64,000 nt of DNA from Luscinia megarhynchos. Its lineage: Eukaryota; Chordata; Aves; Passeriformes; Turdidae. A model generated the notes under the pieces. It was not told the origin of the DNA. It searched no databases and worked only from the letters and a program-made list of their open reading frames with translations. The stretch covers positions 1 through 64,000 of the forward strand of contig JAPFBE010000081.1 of NCBI GenBank assembly GCA_034336665.1, given 5' to 3'. Of the stretch, positions 6,001 to 64,000 are shown piece by piece (the stretch's first letter is position 1; the number at the start of each line of letters is the position of its first letter). A program made the position numbers and the translations under genes.

Positions 6001-6616
6001 AATCCCAAAAAAATCCCCAAAAACCCCCAAAATTCCCAAAGAACCTGCAGAAGCTCCCACCTGTCCTGGCACTCCTCCTTCTGGTGCCTCTCCAGCAGGG
6101 ACCTGGGGAACTGGCGGGCGCAGAAGCCGCACTCGGCCGGCAGTTCGCTCACCGCCTTTAGGCGCAAAATCGCCAAAATCTCCCAAAAAATCCCCAAAAA
6201 TTCAAAAATATTCTTTAAAAATCCTCAAAAAATCCGCCAAAAAATCCCCCAATCCACCAATAAACCTTCCCAAAATCCCATCTTGTCCTGCTGCTCCAAG
6301 AAGAAACTCAACAACTTTTCGGCGCAAAACCGACAAAAATGACCTAAAAAATCACCCTAGAAAATACAAAAAAAAATCCCAAAAAATCCCCAAAAATGCC
6401 CAAAAAATCCCAAAATTCCAAAAAAATCCCAATAAATTCCAATAAATAAATCCCCAAAAAAACCAATCTTCTGCTGCCACTCTAAGAAGAAACTCAACGA
6501 TTATAGGCACAAAACGCCCAAAACCGACTCAATACAACCCCCAAAAAATCCCAAAAAATCCCAAAAAAATCCCAAAAAACCCCCAAAATTCCCAAAGAAC
6601 CTGCAGAAGCTCCCAC
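1..6616. repeat. ZFTRAF1 intron 2 (part): A/C-rich interspersed array
   Basis: The plus strand is almost entirely runs of A broken by short C runs (AAAAATCCC-type units). Set into it are about 20 copies of a roughly 75-bp element built around AAGAAGAAACTCAACGATTT, for example near 1641, 1850, 2056, 2255, 2425, 2640, 2818, 2990, 3165, 3580, 3790, 4150, 4346, 4740, 4944, 5349, 5730, 5940, 6300 and 6486. Two sister forms alternate: one preceded by CTGCTGCCACTCTAAG and one by GCTCCAAG, with different 3' tails. From about 3.3 kb rightwards the units also carry exon fragments, described separately. I could not match the 75-bp element to any gene or transposon. The stretch lies downstream of ZFTRAF1 exon 2 on the minus strand, so it is intronic. 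Confidence 0.85.
3325..6158 (-). pseudogene. ZFTRAF1: Six tandem partial copies of the 3' end of ZFTRAF1 exon 2, each with splice donor
   Basis: Fragments at 3325-3422, 3916-4013, 4485-4582, 5077-5110 (short and degenerate), 5481-5578 and 6061-6158 repeat the last roughly 98 bases of exon 2 (6617-6714). On the minus strand they read [20 protein letters not shown] and onward to QKEECQDR, followed by the same GTGGGAGCT donor. Start-to-start spacing is about 591, 569, 592, 404, 580 and 556. The copy furthest from the exon is the most diverged of the full-length copies ([10 protein letters not shown]). All but the short copy keep the frame open. Each full copy begins at the same junction, where GCGCCTAAAG or GCGCCTGAAG runs into GCGGTGAGC, with no good acceptor, so they are probably not spliced as exons. 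They look like by-products of an intron array whose unit overlaps the exon end. Confidence 0.9.
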
Positions 6617-6855
6617 CTGTCCTGGCACTCCTCCTTCTGGTGCCTCTCCAGCAGGGACCTGGGGAACTGGCGGGCGCAGAAGCCGCACTCGGCCGGCAGC
6701 TCGCTCACCGCCTTCTCCACGGCCAGGTTGCGGCAGCAGAGGCTCTTGGAGATCTCGCAGCGGCAGTTGGGGCACGTGGCCTGTTCCTCCTTCAGCCGCG
6801 AGTCGGCCAAGAGGTGGATGAAGCACCCAGCACACATCAGGTGCCCGTTGGTGCA
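6617..6855 (-). CDS. ZFTRAF1: ZFTRAF1 (CYHR1) exon 2: RING/TRAF-type zinc-finger core
   Basis: This exon encodes the cysteine/histidine-rich core of ZFTRAF1. On the minus strand it reads [20 protein letters not shown], then [20 protein letters not shown], then [20 protein letters not shown] and ends EECQD. The order and spacing of Cys and His match the vertebrate protein nearly residue for residue, and the frame is fully open. The acceptor is TTTTTTGCAG before TGCACC, and the donor is GTGGGAGCT after CAGGACAG. The RING is completed by Cys residues in exon 1. The TRAF-like C-terminal half must lie in exons to the left of position 1. The family is thought to act as a zinc-binding adaptor; its biochemical role is poorly known. 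Both ends of this exon are copied into the flanking introns, but the middle is single copy. Confidence 0.95.
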
Positions 6856-6867
6856 CTGCAAAAAATA

Positions 6868-45350: not shown

Positions 45351-47255
45351 CAAAATGTCCCAAAATCCCCCCAAAAATCTCATTTTTTTCCCCAGAAGAG
45401 TTCAAAAATCTTTTTTTTTTCCCTCAGAGGAGCCCAAAAATCCCTCCCAAATTCTCCCTTTTTTCCCCCCAAACGACACAAAAATCCCCCTCAAAAATAT
45501 TTTTTTTCTCTCCAAATTTACCCAAAATTCTCATTTTTTCCCCCAGAATGACCCAAAATCCCCTCTGTAAATTCTCCTTTTTTTTCCCCAAAAATCCCCC
45601 CAAAATTCTCATTTTTCCCCAAAATGACCCAAAATCCCCCGTCAAAATTCTTTTTTTTTTTTCCCCAGAAATCTCCCCAAATTCTCCTTTTTTCTCCCCA
45701 AAAATGACCCAAAAATCTCCCAAAATTCTCATTTTTTCTCCCTAAATGACCCAAAATTCCCCCAAATTCTCTTTTTTTATTTTCCCCAGATTGGCCCAAA
45801 ATCCCCCCTCAAAATTCTCCTTTTTTCCCCTAAAATGTCCCAAAATTCTCCCAATATTCTCATTTTTTCCCCCAGAATGACCCAAAAATCCTCCAAAAAT
45901 CTCATTTTTTCCCCCAGAATGATACAAAATTCTCCTTTTTTTCCCCAAAAATGACCCAGAATTCCCCCACAAAATTCTCATTATTTTCTCCCAAAATGAC
46001 CCAAAATCCTCCCTCAAAATTCCCTTTTTTTCCCCAAAAATCCCCCCAAATTCTCCTTTTTTTCCCCAAAAATGACCTAAAATCCCCTCCAAAATTCTCA
46101 TTTTTTTCCCCCCAGAATGATCCAAAATTCCCCCAAATTTTTCTTTTTTTATTTTCCTCAGATTGGCCCAAAATTCCCCCTCAAAATTATTTTTTTTTCC
46201 TCCAGAATGACCCAAAAATCTCCCCAAAAATCTTATTTATTTCCCTCCAGAGTGGCCCAAAATTCTCCTTTTTTTCCCCCAAAAATCCTCCCCAAATTCT
46301 CATTTTTCTCCTCTAGAAATACCCTAAAATTCTCCTTTTTTTTCCCCAAAATGACCCAAAAATCCCCCCTAAAATTCTCATTTTTTTCCCTCAGAATGAC
46401 CCAAAAATCCCCCAAAATTCTCATTTTTTCTCCCCCAGAAAGGCCCCAAAATTCCCTTTTTCTCCCACAAATGTCCCAAAATTCTCCCAAAATTCTCATT
46501 TTTTTCCCTCATAATGACCCAAAATTCACCCCCAAATTCTCATTTTTCTCCCCAAAAAACCCCCAAAATTATCTTTTTTTTTCCCCCCAAATGACCCAAA
46601 AATCCCCCAAAATTCTCATTTTTTCCCCCAAAAATCCCCCCAAATTCTCCTTTTTTTTCCCCCAAAATGACCCAAAAATCCCCCAAAATTCTCTATTTTT
46701 TTTCTCCCAAAAATCCCCCCAAATTCTTCTTTTTTCTCCCCCGAAATGACCCAAAAATCTCCCAAAATTCTCATTTTTTCTTCCTAAATGACCCAAAATC
46801 CCCCCAAATTTCTCCTTTTATTTTCCCCAGATTGGCCCAAAATCCCCCCTCAAAATTCTCCTTTTTTCCCCTAAAATGTCCCAAAATTCTCCCAAAATTC
46901 TCATTTTTTCCTCCAAAAAATCCCCCAAAATTATCTTTTTTTTCCCCGAAATGACCCAAAAATCCCCCAAAATTCTCATTTTTTTCCCCCCAAAAATGCC
47001 CCAAAATTCTCATTTTTTTCTCCCAAAAATCCCCCCAATTTTTCCTTTTTTTCTCCCCAAAATGACCCAAAAATCTCCCCAAAATTCTCTTTTTTTTACC
47101 CAAAATGACCCAAAAATCTTCCCAAAATTCTAATTTTCCCCTAAAAATCCCCCTCAGAATTCCCATTTTTTCCCCCTAAAATGTCCCAAAATCCCTCCCA
47201 AAATTCTCTTTTTTCTCCCCTAAAAAATCCCCCAAAATTCTCCTTTTTTCCCTCC
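45351..47255. repeat. TONSL intron 1: AATTCTCATTTTTTCCCCCA array
   Basis: About 1.9 kb of units, roughly 35-50 bp each: CCCAAAAATCCCCCAAAATT, CTCATTTTTTCCCCCAGAAT, GACCCAAAAT. Many units contain a pyrimidine tract plus CAG, so the intron holds dozens of acceptor-like sites. No exon fragment is attached to them. Confidence 0.87.
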
Positions 47256-47990: not shown

Positions 47991-50159
47991 GGGAAAAAAA
48001 TCCACCCAAATTTTGGGAATTTTAGGAAATTTTAAAATTTTTGTGGAAATTTCTTGAATTTTTCTGGGTTTTTTTAATTTTTATTTTTGTGAGAATTTCT
48101 TGGATTTTTATGGGAATTTCTTGAATTTTTGTGAGAATTTTTTAAATTTTTATGAGAATTCCCAAAATTCCAAATTTTAATTTTTTCTTAATTTCTCATT
48201 CCCAAAATTACAAAAATCCAAGAAAAATTCCCAATTTTTGTGAAAATTCTCTAAATTTTTATGGAAATTTCTTCAATTTTTGCAGAAATTTCTGAAATTT
48301 TATCAAAATTTTTTTTAAATTTTTGTGAGAATTCCAAATTTTAATTTTTTTGGGAATTTCCCATTCCCAAAATTACAAAAATCCAAAAAAAATTCCCAAT
48401 TTTTGGTGGAAATTCTCTAAATTTTTATTGAAATTTCTTCAATTTTTGCAGGAATTTCTTGAATTTTATGAGAATTTTTTTGGGATTTTTTTATAAATTC
48501 CCAAATTTCCAAATTTTAGTTTTTTGGGAATTTCTCATTGCCAGAATTACAGAAATAAAAAAAAAATTCCCAATTTTTTGTGGAAATTCTCAAAATTTTT
48601 ATGGAAATTTCTTCAATTTTTGCAGGAATTTCTGAAATTTTCTTGGGATTTTTTGTGGGAATTTTTTTATAAATTCCCAAAATTCCAAATTTAATTTTTT
48701 TGGGAATCTCTCATTCCCAAAATTACAAAAATCCAAGAAAAATTCCCCATTTTTGCTGGAAATTCTCCAAATTTTTATGGAAATTTCTTCAATTTTTGCA
48801 GAAACTTCTGAAATTTTTTTGGGATTTTTTGGGGAATTTTTTTATAAATTCCCAAAATTTCCAAATTTTAATTTTTTTGGAAATTTCTCATTGCCAGAAT
48901 TACAAAAATCCCCAAAAAATTCCCAAATTTTTTGTGGAAATTCTCTAAATTTTTATGGAAATTTCTTCCATTTCTTGAATTTTTATGGAAATTTTTATTT
49001 TATTTTTTTGGGGATTCCCAAAATTCCAAATTTTAATTTTTTGGGAATTTCTCATTGGCAGAATTACAGAAATCCAAGAAAAATTCCCAATTTTTTTTTT
49101 AAATTCTCTAAATTTTTATAGAAATATCTTCAATTTTTGCAAGAATTTCTGAAATTTTGTCAAATTTTTTTTTTATTTTTGTGGGAATTCCTAAAATTCC
49201 AAATTTTGTTTTTTTTAAATTTCTCATTCCCAAAATTACAAAAATCCAAAAAAAATTCTCAAATTTTTGTTGGAAATTCTCCAAATTTTTATGGAAATTT
49301 CAACAATTTTTGCAGGAATTTCTGAAATTTTATGGGAATTTTTTTAAAATTTTTTTAGCAATTCCCAAAATTTCTAAATTTGAATTTTTTTCCTAATTTC
49401 TCATTCCCATAATTGCAAAAATCCAAGAAAAATTCCCAAATTTTTGTCGAAACTCTCTAAATTTTTCTGGAAATTTCTTCAATTTTTGCAGAAATTTCTT
49501 GAATTTTATGAGAAATTTTTTGGGATTTTTTCGGGAATTTTTTTGGGATTTTTTTTGGGAATTCCCAAAATTCCAAATTTAATTTTTTCGGGAATTTCTC
49601 ATTTTCAGAATTACAAAAATCCAAGAAAAATTCCCAATTTTTTTCGGAAATTCTCCAAATTTTTATTGAAATTTCTTCAATTTTTGCAGAAACTTCACCA
49701 ATTTTTTTGGGGGATTTTTTTTGGGAATTTTTTTGGGAATTCCCAAATTCCCAAATTGAATTTTTTGGGAATCTCTCGTTCCCAGAATTACAGAAATCCA
49801 AGAAAAAATCCCAAATTTTATGTGGAAATTCTCAAAATTTTAATGGAAATTTCTTCAATTTTTGCAGAAATTTCTTGAATTTAATGAGAAATTTTTTGGG
49901 ATATTTTTGGGAATTTTTTTGGGATTTTTTTTGGGAATTCCCAAAATTCCAAATTTAATTTTTTTGGGAATTTCTCATTTTCAGAATTACAAAAATCCAA
50001 GAAAAATTCCCAATTTTTTTCGGAAATTCTCCAAATTTTTATTGAAATTTCTTCAATTTTTGCAGAAACTTCACCAATTTTTGGGGGATTTTTTTTGGGA
50101 ATTTTTTTGGGAATTCCCAAATTCCCAAATTGAATTTTTTGGGAATTTCTCGTTCCCAG
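47991..50159. repeat. TONSL intron 1: array whose unit carries the exon 2 acceptor and first exon bases
   Basis: A composite unit of roughly 170-250 bp repeats about ten times. It contains GGGAATTTCTCATTCCCAGA, ATTACAGAAATCCAAG, GAAATTCTCCAAATTTTTAT, and TTCTTCAATTTTTGCAG. The TTCCCAGAATTACAGAAATC and CCAAG part is identical or nearly so to the true exon 2 start (50151-50176), so each copy repeats the acceptor and about 17 coding bases. Copies are seen near 48200, 48370, 48545, 48715, 48895, 49070, 49235, 49410, 49610 and 49790, with another near 49985. Confidence 0.88.
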
Positions 50160-50255
50160 AATTACAGAAATCCAAGGGGAAGTTTCGGGATCTGGGGAAT
50201 TCGGCCGAGCTGGCGGCGACCTGCAACAGGCTGGGGGAGCTGCTGGCAGCACACG
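50160..50255 (+). CDS. TONSL: TONSL exon 2: first helix and start of TPR region
   Basis: The acceptor CGTTCCCAG (50159) gives the right phase with exon 1. The peptide is QLQKSKGKFRDLG, NSAELAATCNRLGELLAAHG, with the last Gly split across the GTGAGA donor at 50256. CNRLGELLAAHG matches the family motif (C-H-Q-L-G-E-L-L-A-G-H-G) that opens the first TPR. The frame is open throughout. Its first roughly 17 bases are part of the upstream array. Confidence 0.92.
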
Positions 50256-51185
50256 GTGAGAGCGCAAACTGGGAGCACTGGGAGCACTGGGAGGGACTGG
50301 GATGGGATTGGGAGGGACTGGGAGGCACTGGGAGGCACTGGGATGGGATTGGGATGGGACTGGGAGGCACTGGGATGGGACTGGGATGGACTCGGATAGG
50401 ACTGGGATATACTGGGATGGGACTGGGAGGGACTGGGATGGATTGGGATGGACTGGGAGGGACTGGGAGGGACTGGGATGGGATTGGGATGGGATTGGGA
50501 TGGGATTGGGATGGACTGGGAGGGACTGGGATGGGATTGGGATGGACTGGGAGGGACTGGGATGGGATTGGGAGGGACTGGGATGAACTGGGATGGGATT
50601 GGCATGGACTGGGATGGACTGGGAGGGACTGGGATGGGATTGGGATGGACTGGGATGCACTGGGATGGGATTGGGATGGACTGGGAGGGACTGGGATGGG
50701 ATTGGGATGGACTGGGAGGCACTGGGATGGGATTGGGATGGACTGGGAGGGACTGGGATGGGATTGGGATGGACTGGGAGGGACTGGGATGGGATTGGGA
50801 GGGACTGGGATGAACTGGGATGGGATTGGCATGGACTGGGATGGACTGGGAGGGACTGGGATGGGATTGGGATGGACTGGGAGGGACTGGGACCAGACTG
50901 GGATCAACTGGGAGGGACTGGGAGGGACTGGGATGGACTGCGATATACTGGGATTGGATTTGGATAGACTGGGATGGACTGGGAGGGACTGGGATATACT
51001 GGGATAGGACTGGGATATACTGGGATGGACTGGGAGGGACTGGGAGGGACTGGGATTAACTGGGACTGGATTTGGATGGACTGGGAGGGACTGGGATTAA
51101 CTGGGAGGGACTGGGATGGACTGGGATTGGATTTGGATGGACTGGGATGGACTGGGATTAACTGGGATTAACTGGGATGGTCTGG
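50256..51185. repeat. TONSL intron 2: 10-bp minisatellite ACTGGGATGG / ACTGGGAGGG
   Basis: About 900 bp of regular units, mainly ACTGGGATGG, ACTGGGAGGG and GATTGGGATGG. They are reverse complements of the units at 40520-40967. The array begins within about 15 bp of the exon 2 donor. Gly/Trp/Asp-rich frames through it are artefacts. Confidence 0.94.
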
Positions 51186-52500
51186 GAGGGGATTCCTTGG
51201 ATATTTGTGGGATTTTTTTGTGGGAATTTTTTATTTTTGGGGAAATTTCCTGGATTTTTTTTAAAATTATTTTTGTGGAAATTTCTTGTTTCTTTGGGGG
51301 AAATTCTTGATTATTATTTTGGGAATTTCTTGGATTTTTGTGGGAATTTTTTTGCTTTTTGTGGGAATTTTTGTGGGATTTCTGACATATTTTGTGGGAA
51401 TTGCTGGGATTTAAAAAATTTTTTTTATTTTATTTTTTTGTGGGCATTCCTTGGATTTTGATGGGAACTTTTTTGATTTTTTTGGTGGAAATGTCTTGGA
51501 TTTTTGTGGGAAATTTTAGTTTTGTTTGGCTTTTTTAAATTACTTTTTTGTGGGAGTTTCCTGGATTTTTGTGGGAATTTTTTTTGTTTTTTGGGAATTG
51601 CCTGAATTTTTTCAGTTTTATTTTTGTGGGAATTTCTTGGATTTTTGTGCGATTTTTTTTTTACAAATTCCATGAATTTCTGTTGAATTTTTTTTTACAT
51701 TTTGGGATTTTTTTTTTAATTTTCTGTGGGAATTCCCTGATTTTTTGTGGGATTTATGATGTGAATTCCCTGAATTTTTTGTGGGAATTTAATTGATTTT
51801 TGTGGCAATTTTGGTGGGAATTTCTTGGATTTTTGTGCGAATTTTTTGGTTTTTTCCAGGAATTTTTTTGGATTTTTTTTGGAATTTTTTGGATTTTGCT
51901 GGGAATTTTTTGGGAATTCTCTGAACTATTTTTTTAAAATCCCCAGGTCAGTTCCAGGAGGCTCTGGAGGAGCTGAAAATTCTGGAATTTTGTGGCAATT
52001 CCTTGGAATTTGATGGGAACGTTTTGAAATTTTTGTGGCAATTTCTTGGATTTTTGTGGGAATTTTTTTGATTTTTTTTACAGGAATTTCTTGGAATCTT
52101 GTGGGAATTTTTTGTGGGAATTTCTTGAAATTTTGTGGGAATATTGGTGGGAATTTCTTTGATTTTTGTGAGAATTTTTTTTGATATTTGGTGGAATTTT
52201 TTGTGAATTTTTCTGCAAATTCCATAAATTTTTCTGGGATTTTTTTTAAATTTTTTGGGATTTTTTTTTTAATTTTCTATGGGAATTCCCCGAATTTTTT
52301 GTGGAAATTTTGATGTTTATTTCCTGAAATTTTGTGAGATTTTTTTTCATTTTTATGGAATTTTTTTAGAAAATTTTTTGGATTTTTGTCGATTTTTTTT
52401 GCGTTTTTTTGCGAATTTTGGTGGGAATTTTTTGGATTTTTTTTTTAAATATTTGGATTTTGCTGGGAATTTTTTGGGAATTCTCTGAACTATTTTTTTA
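51186..52500. repeat. TONSL intron 2: GTGGGAATTTCTTGGATTTTT array
   Basis: G/T-rich units of 20-40 bp: GGATTTTTGTGGGAATTTTT, TTTCTTGGATTTTTGTGGG. Two composite units of about 564 bp run from roughly 51380 to 52510 and end in the same sequence: GGGAATTCTCTGAACTATTT, TTTTAAAATCCCCAG, then exon sequence. Confidence 0.86.
51947..51985 (+). pseudogene. TONSL: Partial copy of the 5' end of TONSL exon 3 with acceptor
   Basis: After AAAATCCCCAG the sequence reads GQFQEALEEL, then KILEF before it dissolves into intron repeat. It copies the first part of exon 3 (52511 onward), 564 bp upstream, and then skips the CACAGGGAGGAGCTG block. It has a usable acceptor but no nearby donor. Confidence 0.9.
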
Positions 52501-52510
52501 AAATCCCCAG

Positions 52511-52655
52511 GTCAGTTCCAGGAGGCTCTGGAGGAGCACAGGGAGGAGCTGGAAATTCTGAATCTGCTGGGGACCCTCTAATGCCGTCATGCACCAATCG
52601 AAAATCGGGCGAACAGCCTGGCTGAGCTGCACAGCTTCCCCTGGAGGCCCTGCAG
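52511..52655 (+). CDS. TONSL: TONSL exon 3: TPR 1, frame broken
   Basis: The acceptor CCCCAG gives the right phase with exon 2 (G|GT). The exon reads GQFQEALEEHREELEIL, matching the first TPR (Y-A-E-A-L-E-Q-H-W-Q-E-L). The frame then meets TAA at 52579-52581. In other frames AVMHQSKIG and NSLAELHSFP follow, matching A-V-A-H-R-K-I-G-E-R-L-A-E of the family, before GCCCTGCAG and the GTGAGA donor. At least two or three small indels are needed. The surrounding exons are open, so errors or a recent lesion are more likely than an old pseudogene. Confidence 0.85.
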
Positions 52656-54720
52656 GTGAGAAAAAATATAACAATTTGGGCAATTTGGGCAATTTTAGGG
52701 ATGTTGGGAATTTAAGAAGCAAAAATCCCCCTGAATTCTACAAAAATCCCCAAAAAAATCGGAGAAAAATCGCAAAAAATCCGCCCGAAAATCGCAAAAA
52801 ATCGTAAAAAAAATCGCAAAAATTCACAAAAAAAAATCCCTCTAAATTGCAGAAAAATTGTCCTGAAAAAAAGTTCTCCCAGGATTGTGAGAAAAAGCTC
52901 AAAGAAGCTTCAAAAATGCCCCAAAAAATTCTCCAAAAATCCCCCCAAATCCCCAAAATTCACCCCAAAAACCCCCAAAATTGCCCCCAAAAATCTGATA
53001 AAATTCTCAAAAATTTCTCCAAAAATAAAAAAAAATTCACAAAAAAATCCCCCCAAAAATCCCTAAAAAAGTCTCCCAAGAAAAATTTCAAAAAATCTCC
53101 AAAAATTCTCCCAAAAAATCCACAAAACTGCCCAGAAATACTTGAAAAAAATCCCTCTAAAAATTGCTTAAAAAAATCCCCCCAAAAAAATCTGAAAAAA
53201 AATCTCAAAAATGTCCAAAATTCTCAAAAAAATCCCCCCAAAAAAATTCACAACAAATCTTAAAAAAATCTCAAAAAATTCACCAAAAAATCCCTCAAAA
53301 TTGCAGAAAAATTGTCCTGAAAAAAGTTCTCCCAGGATTGTGGGAGAAAAAGCTCAAAGAAGCTTCAAAAAATGCCCCAAAAAAATTCTCCAAAAATCCC
53401 CCCAAATCCCCAAAAATTCACCCCCAAAACCCCCAAAATTCGCCTCTCAAAAAATCTGGATAAAATTCTCAAAAAATTTCTCCAAAAATAAAAAAAAATT
53501 CACAAAAAATCCCCCCAAAATCCCTAAAAAGTCTCCAAGAAAATTTCAAAAAATCTCCAAAAATTCTCCCAAAAATCCACAAAAACTGCCCAGAAATACT
53601 TGAAAAAATCCTCTAAAAATTGCTTAAAAAATCCCCCCAAAAATCTGAAAAAAATCTCAAAAAATGTCCAAAATTCTCAAAAAATCCCCCCAAAAATTCA
53701 CAACAAATCTTAAAAAAAATCTCAAAAATTCACCAAAAAATCCCTCAAAAATTGCAGAAAAATTGTCCTGAAAAAAAGTTCTCCCAGGATTGTGAGGAAA
53801 AGCTCAAAGAAGCTTCAAAAATGCCCCCAAAAAATTCCCTCCAAAAATCCCCCTAAAAATTCTAAGTAAGAATCCCCCAAAAATTGCAAAATAAATTTTC
53901 AAGAAATCCCAAAAATTCACCAAAAAATTCCCAAAAAATCCCCCCTAAAAATCCCCAATAACTTATCCAAAAATCCCAAAAATTCAGCAAAAACCCCCGA
54001 AAAATTCCCCTAAAAAAATCCCCCCCAAATTCTCCAACAATCCCCTAAAAATTTCAAAGAATTCCTCCAAAAAATTGCCCCCAAAAGTTCTCCAAAAATT
54101 GCTGAAAAGTTCCTTGATAAAATTCTTAAATATTCCCTCTAAACATCAAAAAAAATTCACAAAAAAATCCCCCCAAAAATCCCTAAAAGTCTCCAAGAAA
54201 AATTTCAAAAAATCTCCAAAAAATTCCTCCCAAAAAATCCACAAAAAAGTGCCCAGAAATACATGAAAAAAATCCCTTAAAAATTCCCTAAAAAATCTGA
54301 AAAAATCTCAAAAAATGTCCAAAATTCTCAAAAAATCCCCCCAAAAATTAACAAAAAATTCTAAAAAAAAAATCTCAAAAATTCACAAAAAAATCACCCA
54401 GAATTGCAGAAAATTGGTCCAAAAATTGAGAATCCTTAAAAAAATCCTCCCAGAATTCAGAAAAAAAAGACCAAAGAAGCCTCAAAAAATTTCCTGAAAA
54501 ATTCTCCAAAATCCCCTAAAAATTCTAAGAAAGAATTCCCCAAAATTGCAAAAAAAAATTTTCAAGAAATCCCAAAAATTCACCAGAAATTCCCAAAAAA
54601 TCCCCCTAAAAATCCCCAATAATTTATCCAAAAAATCCCAAAAATTCAGCAAAAAACCTCCAAATTCTGCATAAAAAATCCCCCCAAATTCTTCAACAAT
54701 CCCCTAAAAATTTCAAAGAA
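52656..54720. repeat. TONSL intron 3: AAAAATCCCCCC array with ~452-bp unit
   Basis: A/C-rich plus strand. A composite unit of about 452 bp is marked by TTCTCCCAGGATTGTGAG followed by AAAAAGCTCAAAGAAGCTTC at about 52881, 53334 and 53786, with a decayed fourth near 54460. The marker looks exon-like (QDCEKKLKEASK) but I cannot match it to TONSL or any family; it may be a fragment of unrelated origin carried by the unit. Confidence 0.83.
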
Positions 54721-55685
54721 TTCTCTCAAAAATCATGAATAAATCCCACGAAGTTTTCAAAAAATCTCCAAAAATTCCCCAAAAATCCTCAAAAAATTCT
54801 CTAAACCCCCCTAAAAGTTCACAAAAAAAAAGCCAAAAAAACCCTGAAAAAATCCCCAAAAATTCCCAAACAATTCTCAAATAAAACCCTCAAAAGATGG
54901 ACAAAAATAATCCAAAAATCCCAAAAACTCCTTAAAAATTCCCAAAAAATTAAAAAAAAAAATTCCCAAAAATTCTCATGAAATCCCCAAAAATCTTCAA
55001 AAATTCCTCAAAAAATCGCCAAAAAAATTCTCTAAAAATCTTCAAAAATTCAGTAAAAATTCTAAACAATTTGGAAAAAGGTTCCAAAAAAATCTCTAAA
55101 AATTCCCAAAAATCCCCCTAAAAATCCCCAAAATTTTTCTCAAAAATCATGAATAAATCCCACGAAATTTTCAAAAAATCTCCAAAAATTCCCCAAAAAT
55201 CCTCAAAAAATTCTCTAAACCCCCCTAAAAGTTCACAAAAAAAAAGCCAAAAAAACCCTGAAAAAATCCCCAAAAATTCCCAAACAATTCTCAAATAAAA
55301 CCCTCAAAAGATGGACAAAAATAATCCAAAAATCTCAAAAAACTCCTTAAAAATGCCCGAAAAATTCCAAAAAAAATTCCCAAAAATTCTCATGAATCCC
55401 CAAAAATTTTCAAACAATTCTCAAAAAATCACCAAAAAATTCTCTAAAAATCACCAAAAATTCAGTAAAAATTCTGAAAAAATTCCCCAAAAAATCTCAG
55501 AAAATCCCCAAAAATTCCCCTAAATATCCCCAAAATTTCTCCAAAAAATCCCCAAAAAATCCCGCGAAATTCTCAAAAAACCTCCAAAAAATGCCCAAAA
55601 AATCCACAAAAATTCCAGATTTTTCCCCAAATTTTTCCCAAATTTTCCCAAAATTCTCGAATTTTCCTAAAATTCCCAATTTTCC
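54721..55685. repeat. TONSL intron 3: recent ~414-bp tandem duplication
   Basis: A segment beginning AAAAATCATGAATAAATCCC at about 54729 recurs at about 55143 with near identity for at least 170 bp, including AAACCCTCAAAAGATGGACA. The rest is AAAAATTCCC low complexity leading into the exon 4 partial copy. Confidence 0.82.
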
Positions 55686-55691
55686 CCCCAG

Positions 55692-55730
55692 CACCAGCGG
55701 CAGCACCTGCTGCTGGCTCAGGAGCTCTCA
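55692..55730 (+). pseudogene. TONSL: Partial copy of the 5' end of TONSL exon 4 with acceptor
   Basis: TTTCCCCCCCAG is followed by HQRQHLLLAQEL in the exon 4 frame, then the copy ends at TCAAATCCC. It lies 558 bp before the true exon start (56250). The intervening DNA repeats the same intron units, so exon edge and intron were duplicated together. Confidence 0.92.
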
Positions 55731-56249
55731 AATCCCTCAAAAATCACCCAAAAATTCTCCAAAAAAATCCCCAAAAATCCTCCAAAAATCTCCCAAAGTT
55801 TTTCCAAAAAATCCCATCAATTGAGCAAAAAATGCCCAGAAATTACCTGAAAAATCCACAAAAAAATTCTTCAAAAATCCCCCAAAAATTCTTTAAAAAT
55901 CCCTTAAAAAGTGAAAAAAAATTCTCCAAAAATCCTCGAAAATCTTGTAAAAAATCTAAAAAAATCCACAAAAAATGCCTCAAAAACTTCCCAAAAATTG
56001 TCAAAATTTCCCCAAAAATTTCTCAAAAATTCCCCAAAAAAATCTCAGAAAACCCCCAAAAATCCCCCTAAAAATCCCCAAAATCTCTCCAAAAAATCCC
56101 CAAAAAATCCTGCGAAATTCTCAAAAAATCTCCAAAAAATGCCCAAAACATCCTCAAAAAAATCCAAAAAAATTCCTGATTTTTCCCAATTTTCCCCCAA
56201 ATTTTCCCAAATTTCCCAAATTTCCCTAAAATTCCCAATTTTTCCCCAG
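55731..56249. repeat. TONSL intron 3 end: A/C-rich array
   Basis: AAAAATCCCCAAAAATTC units, ending in a T-rich CCCAATTTTCCCC tract and the true exon 4 acceptor. Nothing else seen. Confidence 0.8.
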
Positions 56250-56550
56250 CACCAGCGGCAGCACCTGCTGCTGGCCCAGGAGCTCTCAGACCCCGTGGAG
56301 CAGCAGCGAGCCTGGGCCACCATCGGCCGCACCTTCATCCTCCTGGCTGAGGAATCCCCAGAATTCTCAGAATTCCCAGAATTCCCACAATTCCCAGAAT
56401 TCCCAGAATTCCCACAAGGATCCCAAGGAGGAGCTGGAATTGCAGAAATTTGGGAAAATTGCCCAAATTTGGGGGAAGCTCCGGAGGCGCTGGGCCGGGC
56501 GCTGGAGGCGTTCAGGGCCAGCCTGGCCATCGTGGAGACACAGCTGGAAG
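56250..56550 (+). CDS. TONSL: TONSL exon 4: TPR region with an in-frame repeat insertion
   Basis: The exon reads HQRQHLLLAQELSDPVEQ, QRAWATIGRTF, then ILLAEESPEF, a run of EFPEFPQ-type residues, GGAGIAEIWENCP, and finally ALEAFRASLAIVETQLEG before the donor GTAGG (56551). The ends match TONSL (Q-H-Q-Y-L-E-L-A and L-Q-R-A-W-A-T-I-G-R-T; then A-F-E-K-S-L-A-I-V-D-E-E-L-E-G). The middle (about 56349-56430) has no counterpart I know: it is a GAATTCCCA tandem repeat of the same type that fills the end of intron 4. The frame is fully open and phases fit on both sides. At 301 bp it is longer than expected because of this insertion. Confidence 0.93.
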
Positions 56551-58020
56551 GTAGGAAGGGAAAATTTGGGAATTTTGGGATATTTAGGAAGTTGTGGAAT
56601 TTTTTAGGGAATTTTTGGGAATTTTTTTTGGAAATTTTGGGGGTTTTTTGAGGATTTTTTAGGGATTTTTTGGGAATTTTTTAGGGATTTTTAAGGGAAT
56701 TTTGGGGTTTTTTGGGAGAATTTTTTGGGAATTTTTGGGGAATTTTTGGGGATTTTTTGGGAATTTTTTGAGGGTTTTTTGGGTTTTTTTGGGGATTTTG
56801 TAAAGGAATACGGGGGATTTTTGAACAATTTTTGGGGATTTTTTGGGGATTTTTTGGGGATTTTTTAGGGGAATTTTGGGAATTTTTTGGAATTTTTTGG
56901 GGATTATTTAGGGGAATTTTGGGGGTTTTTTTTTGGGGAATTTTAGGGATTTTTAGGAATTCTTTTAGAATTTTGGCACTGGAATTTTGGGCACTGGAGG
57001 CGCTTCAGGGCCAGCCTGGCCATCGTGGAGACACAGCTGGAAGGTAGGAATGGGAAAATTTGGGAATTTTGGGAATGTTTAGGGGAGTTGTGGAATTTTT
57101 TAGGGAATTTTTGGGATTTTTTTGGAAATTTTGAGGATTTTTAAGGGATTTTTGGGGAATTTTTAGGGATTTTTAAGGGAATTTTGGGGCTTTTGGGAGA
57201 ATTTTTTGGGAACTTTTTGGGGATTTTTAGGAATTTTTGGGAATTTTTTGGGAATTTTTGAGGGTTTTTGGGGTTTTTTGGGATTTTGTAAAGGAATATG
57301 GGGGGTTTTTGAACAATTTTTGGGGATTTTTGGGATTTTTGGGGATTTTTAGGGAATTTTGGGAATTTTTGGGATTTTTGGGGATTATTTAGGGGATTTT
57401 TGGGGGATTTTTAGGGGATTTTGGGGACTTTTTGGGGGAATTTTGGGATTTTTTAGGAATTCTTTAGAATTTTGGCACTGGAATTTTTGGGCACTGGAGG
57501 CATGCTCAGGGCCAGCCCGGCCATCGTGGGGAGACACAGCTGGAAGGTAGGAAGGAAAATTTGGGAATTTTTAGGAATATTTAGGAAACTGTGGAAATTT
57601 TAGGGAATTTTTGGGATTTTTTTGAAATCTTTAGGATTTTTAGGATTTTTGGGAATCCCTTTATTGATTCTTTAAGGGAATTTGGGGGTTTTTTGGGAGA
57701 ATTTTTGGGGAATTTTCTGGGATTTTTTAGGGATTTTTTGGGAATTTTTGGGGAGACATTTTGGAATTTTTTTATTTTTTAGGGATTTTTTGAAATTTTT
57801 TGGGATTTTTTGGGAGGTTTTTGGGATTTTTTTGAATTTTAATGGGATTTTTAGAGAATTTTGTGGGATTTTTTTAGGGATTTTTTTGAAATTTTTTGGG
57901 GATTTTTTAGGGAATTTTTGGAGGACTTTTTTGGAGATTCCTTGGGAATTTTTTTTGATTTTTTGGGGATTTTTGGGGATTTTTTTGAGAATTTTGGGGT
58001 CTTTTTTGGGGAACTTTTTT
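56551..58020. repeat. TONSL intron 4, first part: GGGAATTTTTGGGGATTTT array with ~500-bp unit
   Basis: G/T-rich plus strand. A composite unit of about 493-503 bp runs from the exon 4 donor and contains GGGAAAATTTGGGAATTTTG, TTTAGGAAGTTGTGG and later GGATTTTGTAAAGGAATA, and ends in a copy of the exon 4 end. After 57547 the array degenerates into TTTTTTGGGATTTTTT units. Confidence 0.85.
57000..57546 (+). pseudogene. TONSL: Two partial copies of the 3' end of TONSL exon 4, each with splice donor
   Basis: Copies end at 57043 and 57546, each followed by GTAGGAA like the real donor. The first reads across CTTCAGGGCCAGCCTGG and CCATCGTGGAGACACAGC almost unchanged but with an extra base; the second has further changes (GGCATGCTCAGG, CGTGGGGAGAC). 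Spacing from the true end at 56550 is 493, then 503. Neither has a clear acceptor. Confidence 0.92.
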
Positions 58021-60538
58021 CAGCACTTCTCAACCACCGCGAGCTGTGGAGCTGCCTCTTCCATCATTCCTAATTCCCTGATCCCATCATTCCCAAAATC
58101 CCAAATCCCATCATTCCCATCCTTCCCAGAATTCCCAAATCCCAGAATTCCAGATTTTTTTCCCATTTTTTTCAGGAATTCTTCTCCACCGAGAGCTGTG
58201 CCAGATGCGGGGCCGCCTCTTCCCATCATTCCCAAATCCCTGATCCCAAATCCCATCATTCCCAAATCCCAAAATTCCCAAACTCCAAATCCCATCATTC
58301 CCAAAATCCCAAATCCCAAAATTCCAGATTTTTTCCCATTTTTTTAGGAATTCTCCCCCACTGTGAGCTGTGTCAGATGCGCAGCCGCCTCTTCCCAGAA
58401 TTCCCAAAATTCAATCCCAGGCTCCAAAATTCCCTCCCCAAAATGTTCTCAAATATTCCCAGAAATCCATTCCAACATTCCTAAAAATCCACTCCAGAAT
58501 TCCCAAATTCCTATCCCAAATTCCCAAAAATCCATTCCCAGAATTCTCAGATTCCACTTCCGGATTCCCAAAATTCCAATCCCAAATTCCCAAAAGTCCG
58601 AACCAGAAATTCTCAAAAACCCAATCCCACAATTCCCCAAATTGCCAAAAATCCAATCCCAAAATTCCCAGAATTCCCAAAATTCCCAAAAAATCCAATC
58701 CCAGAATCTCCAAATCTGCTCCCAAACTTCCAAAAATCTTCTCCGAAATTCCCAGAATTCCCAAAAATCCTTTCCCAAAATTCTGAAATTCCCAATCCCA
58801 TCATTCCCAAAATTCCCAAACTCATTCCCATCATTTCCAGAATTCCCAAAATCCCAGAATTCCTGGAATTTTCCCCATTTTTTTCCAGGAATTCTGCCCT
58901 GCTGGGAGCTGTGTCAGATGCGGAGCCGCCTCTTCCCAGAATTCCCAAATCCCAAATCCCAAAAATCCCAAACTCCAAATCCCAAAATTCCCAGAACTTC
59001 CAAATCCCAGAATTCCCAAATCCCATCATTCCCAAATCCCAAAATCCCAGAATTCCTGGAATTTTTCCCATTTTTTTTCAGGAATCCTGCCCCGCCGGGA
59101 GCTGTGTCAGATGCGGAGCCGCCTCTTCCCAGAATTCCCAAATCCCAAAATTCCCATCATTCCCAAATCCCAAATCCCAAAATTCCCATCATTCCCATCA
59201 TTCCCAAAAATCCCAAATCCCAAAATTTTCAGAATTCCTGGAATTCCATTTTTTTTTAGGAATCCTGCCCCACCGGGAGCTGTGCCAGATGCGGAGCTGC
59301 CTCTTCCCAGAATTCCCAAATCCCAAATCCCAGAATTCCCAAATCCCAAAATTCCCAGAACTCCCAATTCCCAAAACCCCAAATCCCAAAATTTTCAGAA
59401 TTCCCAAAATTCCCTTTTTTTTTTTAGGAATTCTGCTTCGCCGGGAGCTGTGTCAGATGTGGAGCCGCCTCTTCCCAGAATTCCCAAATCCCAGAATTCC
59501 CAAACTTCAAATCCCAAATCCCATCATTCCCAAAATTCCAAAAACCCCCAAATTCCCAGAATTCCCAAATCCCAAAATTTTTTGAATTCCATAGGAATCC
59601 TGCTCACTTGAGCTGTGCCAGATCTTGAGAGCTGCCTCTTCCCAGAATTCCCAAATCCCAAAATTCCCAAACTTCAAATCCCAAATCCCATCATTCCCAG
59701 AATTCCCAAATCCCCAAATTCCCAAATCCCAGAATTCCAGATTTTTCCCCATTTTTTTTAGGAATCCTGCCCTTGAGCTGTGCTTGAATCTTGAGCTGCC
59801 TCTTCCCAGAATTCCCAAATCCCAGAATTCCCAAACTTCAAATCCCAAATCCCATCATTCCCAAAATTCCAAAATCCCAAAATTCCCAGAATTCCCAAAT
59901 CCCAAAATTTTCAAAATTCCAAATTTTTTTTTTTAGGAATCCTGCCCCGCCATGGCTGTGCCAGCTGCGAAGCCGCCTCTTCCCAGAATTCCCAAATTCC
60001 AAAATTCCCAATCTTCAAATCCCAAATCCCATCATTCCCAGAATTCCAAAATCCCCAAATTCCCAGAATTCCCAAATCCCAAAATTTTCAGAATGCCAAT
60101 TTTTTTTTTTTAGGAATCCTGCCCCACTGGGAGCTGTGCCAGATGCGGAGCCTCCTCTTCCCAGAATTCCCAAATCCCAAATCCTGAAATTCCCAAATCC
60201 CAAAATTTCCAGGACACCCAATTCCCAAAATCCTAAATCCCAAAATCCCAAATCCCATAATTCCCATCATTCCCAAAACCCCAAATCCCAAAATTTTCAG
60301 AATTCCCAAAATTCCAATTTTTTTTTTTTTTTAGGAATCCTGCCCCGCCGGGAGCTGTGCCAGATGCGGAGCCGCCTCTTCCCAGAATTCCCAAATCCCA
60401 GAATTCCCAAACTTCAAATCCCAAATCCCATCATTCCCAAAATTCCAAAACCCCCAAATTCCCAGAATTCCCAAATCCCAAAATTCCCAAATCCCAGAAT
60501 TCCCAGATTTTTTTCCCATTTTTTTCAGGAGTCCTGCC
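58021..60538. repeat. TONSL intron 4, second part: CCCAGAATTCCCAAATCCC array
   Basis: C/A-rich plus strand in units CCCAGAATTCCCAAATCC and CCCATCATTCCC, organised in a unit of about 167-220 bp that ends in an exon 5 fragment. Between about 58395 and 58870 there is a different block (TCCAAATCTGCTCCCAAACT, CTTCTCCGAAATTCCC) that is the reverse complement of the units filling intron 5. Confidence 0.88.
58022..60390 (+). pseudogene. TONSL: Twelve partial copies of the 5' end of TONSL exon 5, each with acceptor
   Basis: Fragments follow AG at about 58021, 58175, 58347, 58888, 59081, 59259, 59427, 59594, 59761, 59936, 60113 and 60334; the true exon follows 60538. Most read ILPRRELCQMRSRLF in the exon 5 frame, then switch to PEFPNP instead of LNLG. 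Nearly all keep a T-rich tract plus CAG or TAG. The first, eighth, ninth and tenth are more decayed. Spacing is mostly 167-221 bp, with one gap of 541. Any copy could in principle compete with the real acceptor. Confidence 0.93.
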
Positions 60539-60658
60539 CCGCCGGGAGCTGTGCCAGATGCGGAGCCGCCTCTTCCTCAACCTGGGGCTGGTGCAGGAAT
60601 CGCTGGGGAACTGCCAGAGCAGCGCCCGCCTGCTGAGGGAGAGCGCCCAGCTGGCCCA
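60539..60658 (+). CDS. TONSL: TONSL exon 5: TPR region
   Basis: Joined to exon 4 the peptide is LEG then VLPRRELCQMRSRLFLNLG, then LVQESLGNCQ and SARLLRESAQLAQ. This matches the family (E-L-N-E-M-R-T-R-L-Y-L-N-L-G-L-x-x-E-S-L). The best donor is GTGAGC at 60659, splitting the final Gln codon; read through, the next codon is TGA. The exon is open and in phase. Its first roughly 50 bases are repeated twelve times upstream and its last roughly 51 bases six times downstream; only about 20 central bases (LNLGLVQ region) are single copy. Confidence 0.93.
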
Positions 60659-63600
60659 GTGAGCTGGGAAACTCGGGAATTTGGGAATTTGGGAATTTTG
60701 GGAATGATGGGAATGATGGGATTGGGAATTTTGGGATTTTGGGACAGGATTTTTGGGAATTCTTGGAATTTCAGAGAAGATTTTTGGGAGTTTGGGAGTG
60801 GATTTGGAGATTCTGGGATTGGGATTTTTTGGGAATTTTGGGGAATTTTGGGAATGTTGGGAATGAGATTGGGAATTTTGGGAATGATGGGAATTTTGGG
60901 AATTTTGGAATTTTGGGATTTTGGGAATGGATTTTTGGGAATTCTTGGAATTTCGGAGAAGATTTTTGGAAGTTTGGGAGTGGATTTGGAGATTCTGAGA
61001 TTGGATTTTTTTGGGAATTTTGGGAGTTTTTGGGAAGGTTGGAAATTTTAGGAATGAGTTTGGGAATTTTGGGAATGATGGGATTGGGAATTTTGGAACT
61101 TTGGGAATTTTGGGATTTTGGGACAGGATTTTTTGGGATTTTGGAACTGCGAGAGCAGCGCCCGCCTGCTGAGGGAGAGCGCCCAGCTGGCCCAGTGAGC
61201 TGGGAAACTCGGGAATTTGGGAATTCTGGGAATTTTGGGAATGTTGGGAATGAGATTGGGAATTTTGGGAATGATGGGATTGGAAAATTTGGAATTTTGG
61301 GATTTTGGGAATGGATTTTTTGGGATTTTGGAACTGCGAGAGCAGCGCCCGCCTGCTGAGGGAGAGCGCCCAGCTGGCCCAGTGAGCTGGGAAATTCGGG
61401 AATTTGGGATTTCTGGGAATTTTGGGAATTTTGGGAATGATGGGAATGGGAATTTTGGGAATTTTGGGAAAGGTTTTTTGGGAATTCTTGGAATTTCAGA
61501 GAAGATTTTTGGACGTTTGGGAGCGGATTTGGAGATTCCGGGATTGGGTTTTTTTGAAGTTTGGAATTTTGGGGATTTTGGGAAATTTTGGGAATGTTGG
61601 GAATGAGATTGGGAATTTTGGGAATGATGGGATTGGGAATTTTGGGAATGATGGGATTGGGAATTTTGGGAATTTTGGGATTTTGGGACAGGATTTTTTG
61701 GGATTTTGGAACTGCGAGAGCAGCGCCCGCCTGCTGAGGGAGAGTGCCCAGCTGGCCCAGTGAGCTGGGAAATTCGGGAATTTTGGGAATTTTGGGAATG
61801 AGTTTGGGAATTTTGGGAATGATGGGATTGGGAATTTTGGGAATGATGGGATTGGGAATTTTGGGATTTTGGGAATGGATTTTTGGGAATTCTTGGCATT
61901 TCGGAGAAGATTTTTGGAAGTTTGGGAGTGGATTTGGAGATTCTGAGATTGGATGTTTTTGGGAATTTTGGGAGTTTTTGGGAATTTTGGAAATTTTGGG
62001 AATGAGATTGGGGATTTTGGAAATGATGGGAATGGGAATTTTGGGAATTTTGGGATTTTGGGACAGGATTTTTTGGGGTTTTGGAACTGCCAGAGCAGCG
62101 CCCGCCTGCTGAGGGAGAGCGCCCAGCTGGCCCAGTGAGCTGGGAAACTCGGGAATTTTGGGAATTTTGGGAATGTTGGGAATGAGCTTGGGAATTTTGG
62201 GAATGATGGGATTGGGGTTTTTTGGGAATTTTGGGAATGATTTTTTGGGAGTTTGGGATGTGTTTTTCGGGAAGTCTTGGAATTTCGGAGAAGGTTTTTA
62301 CAAGTTTGGGAGCGGATTTGGAGATTCTGGGATTGGGATTTTTTGGGACTTTTAGGAATTTTGGGAAATTTGGGAATTTTTGGGAATTTTTGGGAATGTT
62401 GGGAATGAGTTTGGGAATTTGGGGAATGATGGGATTGGAAAATTTGGGATTTTGGGAAAGGTTTTTTGGGAATTCTTGGAATTTCGGGGAAGAGTTTTGG
62501 AAGTTTGGGAGCAGATTTGGATATTCTGGGATTGGGTTTTTTGGGAAGTTTGGAATTTTGGGAATTTTTGGGAATTGTGGGAATGTTGGGAATGAGATTG
62601 GGAATTTTGGGAATGATGGGATTGGGAATTTTGGGATTTTCAGAATTTTGGGAAAGGATTTTTGGGAATTCTTGGAATTTCTGGGAAGATTTTTGGAAGT
62701 TGGGGAGTGGATTTGGAGATTCTAGGATTGGATTTTTTTGGAATTGTTGGAATTTTTTGAATTTTGGGAGTTTTTGGGAAATTTGGGAATTTTGGGAATG
62801 ATGGGATTGGGAATTTTGGGAATTTTGGGATTTTGGGAATGGATTTTTTGGGATTTTGGAACCGCGAGAGCAGCGCCCGCCTGCTGAGGGACAGCGCCCA
62901 GCTGGCCCAGTGAGCTGGGAAATTCGGGAATTTTGGGAATTTTGGGAATGAGTTTGGGAATTTTGGGAATGATGGGATTGGGAATTTTGGGAATGATGGG
63001 ACTGGGAATTTTGGGATTTTGGGAATGGATTTTTGGGAATTCTTGGAATTTCGGAGAAGATTTTTGGAAGTTTGGGAGTGGATTTGGAGATTCTGAGATT
63101 GGATGTTTTTGGGAATTTTGGGAGTTTTTGGGAATTTTGGAAATTTTGGGAATGAGATTGGGGATTTTGGGAATGATGGGAATGGGAATTTTGGGAATTT
63201 TGGGATTTTGGGACAGGATTTTTTGGGGTTTTGGAACTGCAAGAGCATCGCCCGCCTGCTGAGGGAGAGCGCCCAGCTGGCCCAGTGAGCTGGGAAATTC
63301 GGGAATTTGGGGATTCTGGGAATTTTGGGAATTTTGGGAATGATGGGATTGGGAATTTTGGGAATTTTGGGAATGATTTTTTGGGAGTTTGGGACGTGTT
63401 TTTTGGGAATTCTTGGAATTTCGGAGAAGGTTTTTGGAAGTTTGGGAGCGGATTTGGGGATTCTGGGATTGGATTTTTTGGGAATTTTGGGAAATTCGGG
63501 AATTTTGGGAATTTTGGGAATGTTGGGAATGAGTTTGGGAATTTTGGGAATGATGGGATTGGGAATTTTGGAAATTTGGGTTTTTGGCACAGGATTTTTG

Positions 63601-64000
63601 GGAATTCTTGGAATTTTGGAGAAGATTTTTGGAAGTTTAGGAGCGGATCTGGAGATTCTGGGATTGGGGTTTTTTTTGAATTTTGGGAATTTTTTGAATT
63701 TTGGGAATTTTGGGAATGTTGGGAATGAGATTGGGAATTTTGAGATTGGAAAATTTGGAATTTTGAGACAGGATTTTTGGGAATTCTTGGAATTTCGGAG
63801 AAGATTTTTGAAGCTTTAGGAGCGGATTTGGAGATTCTGGGATTGGATTCTTTTAGAATTTTGGGAATGTTGGGAATGAGATTGGGAATTTTGGGAATGA
63901 TGGGATTGGGAATTTTGGGAATTTTGGGAAAGGTTTTTTGGGAATTCTTGGGATTTCGGAGAAGATTTTTACAAGTTTGGGAGCGGATTTGGAGATTCTG
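60659..64000. repeat. TONSL intron 5 (part): GGGAATTTTGGGAATG array with ~188-bp higher-order unit
   Basis: G/T-rich plus strand built from GGGAATTTTGGGAATGATGG, GGAATGAGATTGGG, and a block TTTCGGAGAAGATTTTTGGA followed by GTTTGGGAGTGGATTTGGAG. Exon 5 end copies are embedded in it at multiples of about 188 bp. The array continues to the right edge; no later TONSL exon is reached. Confidence 0.9.
61146..63286 (+). pseudogene. TONSL: Six partial copies of the 3' end of TONSL exon 5, each with splice donor
   Basis: Copies begin at about 61146, 61331, 61709, 62084, 62859 and 63234 and read SARLLRESAQLAQ followed by TGAGCTGGGAAA, so each retains the CCCAGTGAGC donor. They begin at GAACTGCGAG or GAACTGCCAG and are very similar to the exon (60608-60658). 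Spacing is about 538, 185, 378, 375, 775 and 375, near multiples of 188. Differences are few (one copy reads SIARLL, one has GGGACAG for GGGAGAG), so the expansion is probably recent or kept homogeneous by conversion. Confidence 0.93.

Follow-up and report, generated by a model that had tools for sequence, protein, structure and literature searches.

The closest described counterpart of the structure treated here is exon stuttering (or sequence stuttering), reported from avian dot chromosomes, mainly those of chicken, where the lateral part of a coding exon is repeated in tandem, together with its splice site, in the adjacent intron (Hron et al. 2026, PMC12954441). The chicken survey comprises 1,345 hits in 236 introns of 115 genes, with 190 introns on dot chromosomes, a strong but not absolute association. 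Its main text reports intact coding regions and no repeat block crossing into adjacent exons, leaves the mechanism to speculation, and contains neither TONSL nor the words “microhomology”, “polarity” and “inverted”. The matches listed in the open-licence literature included no second paper on exon stuttering. The halos of exon-edge copies in the TONSL gene of Luscinia megarhynchos are a further case of exon stuttering, in another bird and another gene. They were found in the window, which spans bases 1–64,000 of contig C1028 (171,621 bases; assembly of 1.09 Gb in 1235 contigs), and the most elaborate account concerns TONSL coding exon 5, whose two edges recur in 18 copies.

As in chicken, the edge copies lie in repeat-filled introns that differ in length between (here putative) alleles, and the published ranges of 1–44 copies and 20–187 exonic bp bracket the values for exon 5 (12 and 6 copies; 48 and 52 bp). 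Unlike the main text of the chicken study, the present analysis treats polarity, founders, junction sequence, and whole-exon reach; it compares, in another bird, two contigs from a single genome, and it finds a related repeat inside coding exon 4, whereas no block was seen to enter exons there. With minisatellites (variable number tandem repeats), the arrays share tandem units (about 150–220 bp on the acceptor side of exon 5) and the gain or loss of whole units, but each of their units includes a splice site along with part of a coding exon, and the units are imperfect and interleaved with other repeats. The repeat-filled, GC-rich avian genes of Beauclair et al. (2019, PMC6792250) also combine tandem-repeat introns carrying G-quadruplex (G4) motifs with complementary motifs in different gene parts, although exon-edge copies do not appear in the available part of that description.

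The copied parts of exon 5 are bases 1–48 and 79–130, which leaves 30 of its 130 bp unique (49–78) according to BLAST; an earlier sequence-only reading had put these values at about 20 and 120. Its count of 12 copies of the acceptor edge upstream and six of the donor edge downstream was reproduced when exon-edge profiles were searched over the whole window on both strands (E <= 1). The acceptor profile yielded 13 sites (12 copies and the exon; E 2.8e-6 to 1.6e-22) and the donor profile seven (six copies and the exon; E 6.8e-20 or better), with zero further matches on either strand of the window at that threshold; five block-shuffled windows gave three and one matches in total. All acceptor copies (58013–60382) precede the exon and all donor copies follow it, without exception on the + strand. 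Three acceptor copies (at 58022, near 59594, and near 59761) are strongly degenerate. The donor copies are spaced at approximate multiples of a single unit length (187, 378, 375, 775, and 375 bp).

60529..60658, + strand: TONSL coding exon 5, 130 bp (BLAST; frame open with exon 4; tonsoku-like matches)
58013..58062, + strand: exon 5 acceptor-edge copy 1, degenerate (profile E 2.8e-6)
58158..58223, + strand: acceptor-edge copy 2 (E 4.3e-20)
58332..58395, + strand: acceptor-edge copy 3 (E 3e-19)
58872..58936, + strand: acceptor-edge copy 4 (E 1.1e-20)
59064..59129, + strand: acceptor-edge copy 5 (E 1.9e-22)
59243..59307, + strand: acceptor-edge copy 6 (E 3.8e-22)
59411..59475, + strand: acceptor-edge copy 7 (E 3.7e-20)
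59581..59642, + strand: acceptor-edge copy 8, degenerate (E 3.1e-8)
59745..59806, + strand: acceptor-edge copy 9, degenerate (E 6e-8)
59921..59983, + strand: acceptor-edge copy 10 (E 5.8e-18)
60099..60161, + strand: acceptor-edge copy 11 (E 2.8e-21)
60318..60382, + strand: acceptor-edge copy 12 (E 1.6e-22)
61143..61204, + strand: exon 5 donor-edge copy 1 (E 2.3e-21)
61330..61391, + strand: donor-edge copy 2 (E 2.3e-21)
61708..61769, + strand: donor-edge copy 3 (E 2.5e-21)
62083..62144, + strand: donor-edge copy 4 (E 3.4e-21)
62858..62919, + strand: donor-edge copy 5 (E 6.8e-20)
63233..63294, + strand: donor-edge copy 6 (E 2.4e-21)

At exon 5, all copies of an edge have the same exon-side junction (12/12 acceptor, 6/6 donor), and the same is true of exon 2 of another gene in the window, presumably ZFTRAF1 (4/4 acceptor copies and five full donor copies, the sixth being a degenerate fragment). 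The intronic sequence past the acceptor junction of exon 5 is alike in 10 of 12 copies. These patterns fit one founding duplication per edge and subsequent turnover within the array. The third base of exon 5 is a G in the exon but in none of the 12 acceptor copies (11 A, 1 C), and a further C-to-T change is common to four of them; because they share changes that the exon lacks, the copies mostly descend from one another or from an earlier form of the exon. Among the donor copies of ZFTRAF1 exon 2, neighbors are more alike (Mantel p 0.007).

The explanation preferred here, with a probability of roughly 85%, is that the exon 5 halo and its kin represent exon stuttering with one founding duplication per edge followed by array turnover. 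An ancestral local tandem duplication would have had one breakpoint in the intron and the other inside the exon (modal reach 17–90 bp), and the duplicated unit would thereby have carried the splice site and the exon edge. Within the intronic array, the unit would then have been multiplied, lost, shuffled, and partly homogenized in the manner of a minisatellite, probably by unequal exchange or slippage, while the geometry of duplication would have kept the intact exon innermost and placed the edge copies only outward. Splicing presumably uses the innermost acceptor–donor pair still; the 18 spare splice sites around exon 5 constitute a natural test of this choice.

An alternative is a border-seeking process that copies exon edges anew from the exon, by template switching or via RNA, with each event independent. 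All 138 edge copies recorded in the survey described below begin at or include a splice border, albeit by the counting rule itself, and the exonic reach is short (17–90 bp), as such a process would have it. However, independent copying predicts varied junctions, whereas each multi-copy edge has a single one; the copies share changes absent from the exon, and the spacing of the units is near-periodic. Border-seeking copying is therefore considered unlikely.

The survey covered 20 TONSL exons located on C1028 and 13 located on a second contig, C373, and searched the introns on either side (<= 12 kb from each exon) by blastn; exon numbers are those of this analysis, and exons 8, 16, 17, 22, and 24 lie outside the scan. 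ZFTRAF1 exon 2 and eight exons of VPS28 were included, FOXH1 edges and ZFTRAF1 exon 1 left out. Copies were required to include the exon edge and to exceed 36 bits; the best of 3,240 matches in shuffled introns scored 31.9 bits, and the best of 903 in the ZFTRAF1/VPS28 control 26.5. The cut-off is strict, with 10 of the 12 acceptor copies of exon 5 found by profile being recovered by blastn. The acceptor-edge copies of TONSL (56 on C1028, 31 on C373) are all located upstream of their exon and the donor-edge copies (17 and 18) all downstream. Together with 10 copies at ZFTRAF1 and six at VPS28, outward orientation holds for 138 of 138 copies in three genes (TONSL, 73 + 49) on two contigs, which are not independent of each other, and whole-exon duplicates number zero among these 138 blastn-defined copies. 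The remaining matches above 36 bits are 84 internal ones of exon 4, mostly its coding repeat, with three on the other strand.

The outward-only rule proposed in the sequence-only reading is thus borne out as an observation but not as a rule in need of its own process. A tandem duplication across one exon border produced outward polarity in all 459 explicit cases and in every simulated one, and no special rule is needed because such a duplication leaves the intact exon innermost. Outward polarity is a consequence of duplication geometry and provides no clue to a border-specific process; it drops off the list of features that a mechanism must explain. Likewise, the single founding process at exon borders postulated in that reading agrees with the shared junctions as far as one founder per edge is concerned, but a process acting on borders is unsupported because comparable repeats occupy the introns and one related to them lies inside coding exon 4. 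The repeat load of the TONSL introns is heavy, with 184 rows of Tandem Repeats Finder (TRF) output in 50000–64000.

Halos are present at 16 of 39 TONSL edges on C1028, none of them covering a whole exon. If founders were placed uniformly, the absence of a whole-exon founder among 16 would have a probability of 6e-5 if the smallest spacing is taken as the unit and of 8e-6 if the median is. The copied exonic reach over the 16 halos is short, however, with modal values of 17–90 bp, a mean of 53 bp, and a maximum of 57% of the exon, and an exponential reach with this mean leads one to expect 1.02 whole-exon founders of 16. Selection against arrays that duplicate a whole exon, which had been invoked from the sequence at first sight, is possible but not required, because the copied reach is short. 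One exon-side junction per edge and a reach of <= 57% of the exon are new constraints on the mechanism, as are the lack of a general junction microhomology and the fact that not every halo has G4 motifs.

The splice sites are kept in all copies of exon 5 (AG in 12/12 acceptor copies, GTGAGC in 6/6 donor copies), as would be expected if selection retained them as decoys that regulate the splicing of TONSL. Against this, 12 of the 47 pairs of adjacent exon columns in the acceptor copies show no variation either, and acceptor copy number is 10 on one contig and six on the other (blastn). With conservation no higher than background, selection on decoy sites was rejected, and a regulatory role of the copies is regarded as highly improbable. 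The codon positions of the differences are uninformative (acceptor copies, 34, 23, and 29 of 192 each; donor copies, 6/102, 1/108, and 2/102).

From about position 8550 onward, C373 runs collinear with C1028; it is probably the other haplotype of the same genome. Seven of the 13 exons on both contigs (exons 1, 2, 4, 5, 9, 12, and 14) are 98.8–100% identical. Copy numbers determined by blastn differ at six of nine shared edges, the allelic status of the contigs being putative:

Exon 2 acceptor copies: 11 on C1028, 11 on C373
Exon 3 acceptor copies: 1 on C1028, 3 on C373
Exon 4 acceptor copies: 1 on C1028, 1 on C373
Exon 4 donor copies: 2 on C1028, 3 on C373
Exon 5 acceptor copies: 10 on C1028, 6 on C373
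Exon 5 donor copies: 6 on C1028, 6 on C373
Exon 9 donor copies: 2 on C1028, 9 on C373
Exon 10 acceptor copies: 2 on C1028, 3 on C373
Exon 14 acceptor copies: 23 on C1028, 7 on C373

In the exon 2 halo, eight of the 11 copies on C373 have a single clear partner on C1028, in the same order, and the others do not, which indicates gain or loss of whole units. The acceptor copies of exon 5 and the copies of exon 14, the exon itself apart, mostly lack a clear partner on the other contig.

Repeat units could also have been collapsed or invented during assembly. The coding sequence of TONSL gives some reason for this suspicion: exon 3 is frameshifted in the window (52511–52655) and reads through on C373 (reverse complement of 46691–46833), and six of 13 exons differ by 9–17% between the contigs, which points to consensus errors. 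Because the C373 copy reads through, a consensus error is the likeliest cause of the exon 3 frameshift, with a broken allele as the alternative. Nevertheless, C373 has halos of its own with the same exon junctions, and in the chicken study the tandem structure of PHF8 was reportedly checked with raw nanopore reads (PMC12954441). An assembly artefact as the source of the halos is thus very improbable.

Halos could be initiated by replication slippage, break repair, or unequal exchange. Junction microhomology is suggestive at the acceptor edge of exon 5 (5 bp, a value reached at 1 of 120 exon positions), its donor edge (4 bp; 7 to 9 of 120, depending on word length), and the donor edge of ZFTRAF1 (2 bp; 8 of 234); it is not suggestive at three other halos, and the seventh lacks context. 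In a k-mer test, the seven halos together reached p = 0.022 at k = 4, 0.16 at k = 5, and 0.90 at k = 6; for the 16 TONSL halos, p was 0.095 at k = 4 and 0.44 at k = 5, and two bases of slack changed these values to 0.31 and 0.23. G4 motifs are abundant beside exon 5, numbering 24 upstream (minus strand) and 31 downstream (plus strand). They were rejected as a necessary cause; the acceptor-side block of ZFTRAF1 contains no G4 motif on either strand, yet bears a halo.

The G/C skew changes sign from block to block in 52656–64000: intron 3 is C-rich, intron 4 is G-rich to about 58020 and then C-rich, and intron 5 is G-rich, which places exons 4 and 5 between arms that are complementary. The flanks of exon 5 (300 bases on each side) pair at -276.8 kcal/mol, compared with -159.0 kcal/mol after shuffling (z -14.1); z is -14.4 at exon 4, -6.9 at exon 3, -1.9 at ZFTRAF1 exon 2, and -0.6 at exon 2, all relative to 2-base-block shuffles that keep dinucleotide content only roughly. 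The upstream arm of exon 5 also pairs with six other blocks outside intron 5 (-151 to -254), so the complementarity of the flanks largely reflects skewed repeat composition.

Several results weigh against the proposed origin by one founding duplication per edge and array turnover. The two outermost acceptor copies of exon 5 have a different intronic sequence past the junction. Divergence and distance within the exon 5 arrays are not significantly correlated (Mantel p 0.13 for the 12 acceptor copies, 0.17 when the exon is included, and 0.10 for the donor copies). Junction microhomology fails as a general rule over all halos. Exons 3, 6, 7, 10, 11, and 13 (6/13) are only 82.9–90.9% identical between the contigs, which implies consensus errors or divergence beyond the allelic level. 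Finally, the contig is unplaced, and its location on a dot chromosome is presumptive.

Through the in-frame repeat of exon 4, a connection between intron instability and changes in the protein becomes testable:

56250..56550, + strand: TONSL coding exon 4, 301 bp (open frame; exon scan)
56352..56414, + strand: in-frame coding repeat (GAATTCCCA)7 inside exon 4 (TRF period 9, 7.0 copies; open frame)

Exon 5 is intact. The reading frame of exons 4 and 5 is open through (GAATTCCCA)7, and exon 4, including the repeat, measures 301 bp on both contigs. A GT-AG intron cannot remove the repeat because 56335–56500 contains no GT, although a GC-AG intron stays possible. The acceptor halo block of exon 5 contains the 9-mer 28 times, whereas it is absent from the two blocks directly flanking exon 4, which disfavors simple spill-over from the exon's own flanks. 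At the aligned position, the proteins of the songbirds Agelaius and Camarhynchus have (E[I/F]P)n, that of pigeon has a different in-frame repeat, and three others have short loops. The coding repeat may itself have arisen by stuttering. Whether stuttering acts gene-wide and also builds in-frame (GAATTCCCA)n in the TPR region of TONSL exon 4, with introns, exon edges, and coding loops merely the places where it survives, is judged an evenly balanced question; if so, the mutation process would supply a replication-repair gene with new, lineage-specific protein sequence.

Beyond exon 5, the TONSL part of the window contains 11 acceptor copies at exon 2, and three of the edges of exons 3 and 4 have one or two copies each; the sequence-only reading missed these or left them unlisted. 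ZFTRAF1 exon 2 obeys the same pattern as exon 5, as already recognized in the sequence-only reading, with four acceptor copies upstream and six donor copies downstream, one of which (5068–5116) is short and degenerate.

50160..50255, + strand: TONSL coding exon 2 (AG/GT borders)
48192..50159, + strand: exon 2 acceptor-edge halo, 11 copies with about 17 exonic bp apiece, spaced 164–199 bp (block start reckoned from the spacings)
52511..52655, + strand: TONSL coding exon 3, frameshifted in the window (comparison with C373)
51928..51974, + strand: exon 3 acceptor-edge copy (E 4.9e-11)
55672..55730, + strand: exon 4 acceptor-edge copy (E 5.9e-18)
56989..57056, + strand: exon 4 donor-edge copy 1 (E 7.3e-23)
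57489..57559, + strand: exon 4 donor-edge copy 2 (E 3.8e-20)
6618..6860, - strand: ZFTRAF1 exon 2 (BLAST; gene name presumptive, weak zinc-finger/RING matches)
7320–7394, 7877–7951, 8427–8501, 8974–9048, - strand: four ZFTRAF1 exon 2 acceptor-edge copies (profile and blastn)
3316–3422, 3907–4013, 4476–4582, 5068–5116, 5472–5578, 6052–6158, - strand: six ZFTRAF1 exon 2 donor-edge copies (profile and blastn)

Farther along C1028, VPS28 (138588–152319, - strand) has three acceptor and three donor copies at four of eight exons, all outward. A wrong-side copy at TONSL exon 21 was considered and dismissed; read by eye, the full exon corresponds to 119491–119632, and three other copies lie upstream. 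Short donor-edge pieces of the same exon, below the cut-off, were seen by eye downstream of it at 119800–120200 in steps of about 190 bp.

The gene order in the window is ZFTRAF1 (-), FOXH1 (+), and the first part of TONSL (+); VPS28 (-), located with a bait sequence, follows beyond TONSL on C1028. TONSL was identified by the match of exons 4 and 5 to a “tonsoku-like” protein of Agelaius (63%, E 1.5e-39), one of Camarhynchus (E 7.0e-22), and a “hypothetical protein” of pigeon (43%, E 1.2e-19). In the PDB, other TPR proteins rank on top (GPSM2, E 1.2e-8), and “Protein TONSOKU” is the last of 11 matches (E 0.0035). The other two genes, which we take to be ZFTRAF1 and FOXH1 in line with the sequence-only reading, have zinc-finger/RING and forkhead matches, respectively, all below the Pfam cut-offs. 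A tRNA-gene-like stretch was noticed by eye at 162491–162580 of C1028.

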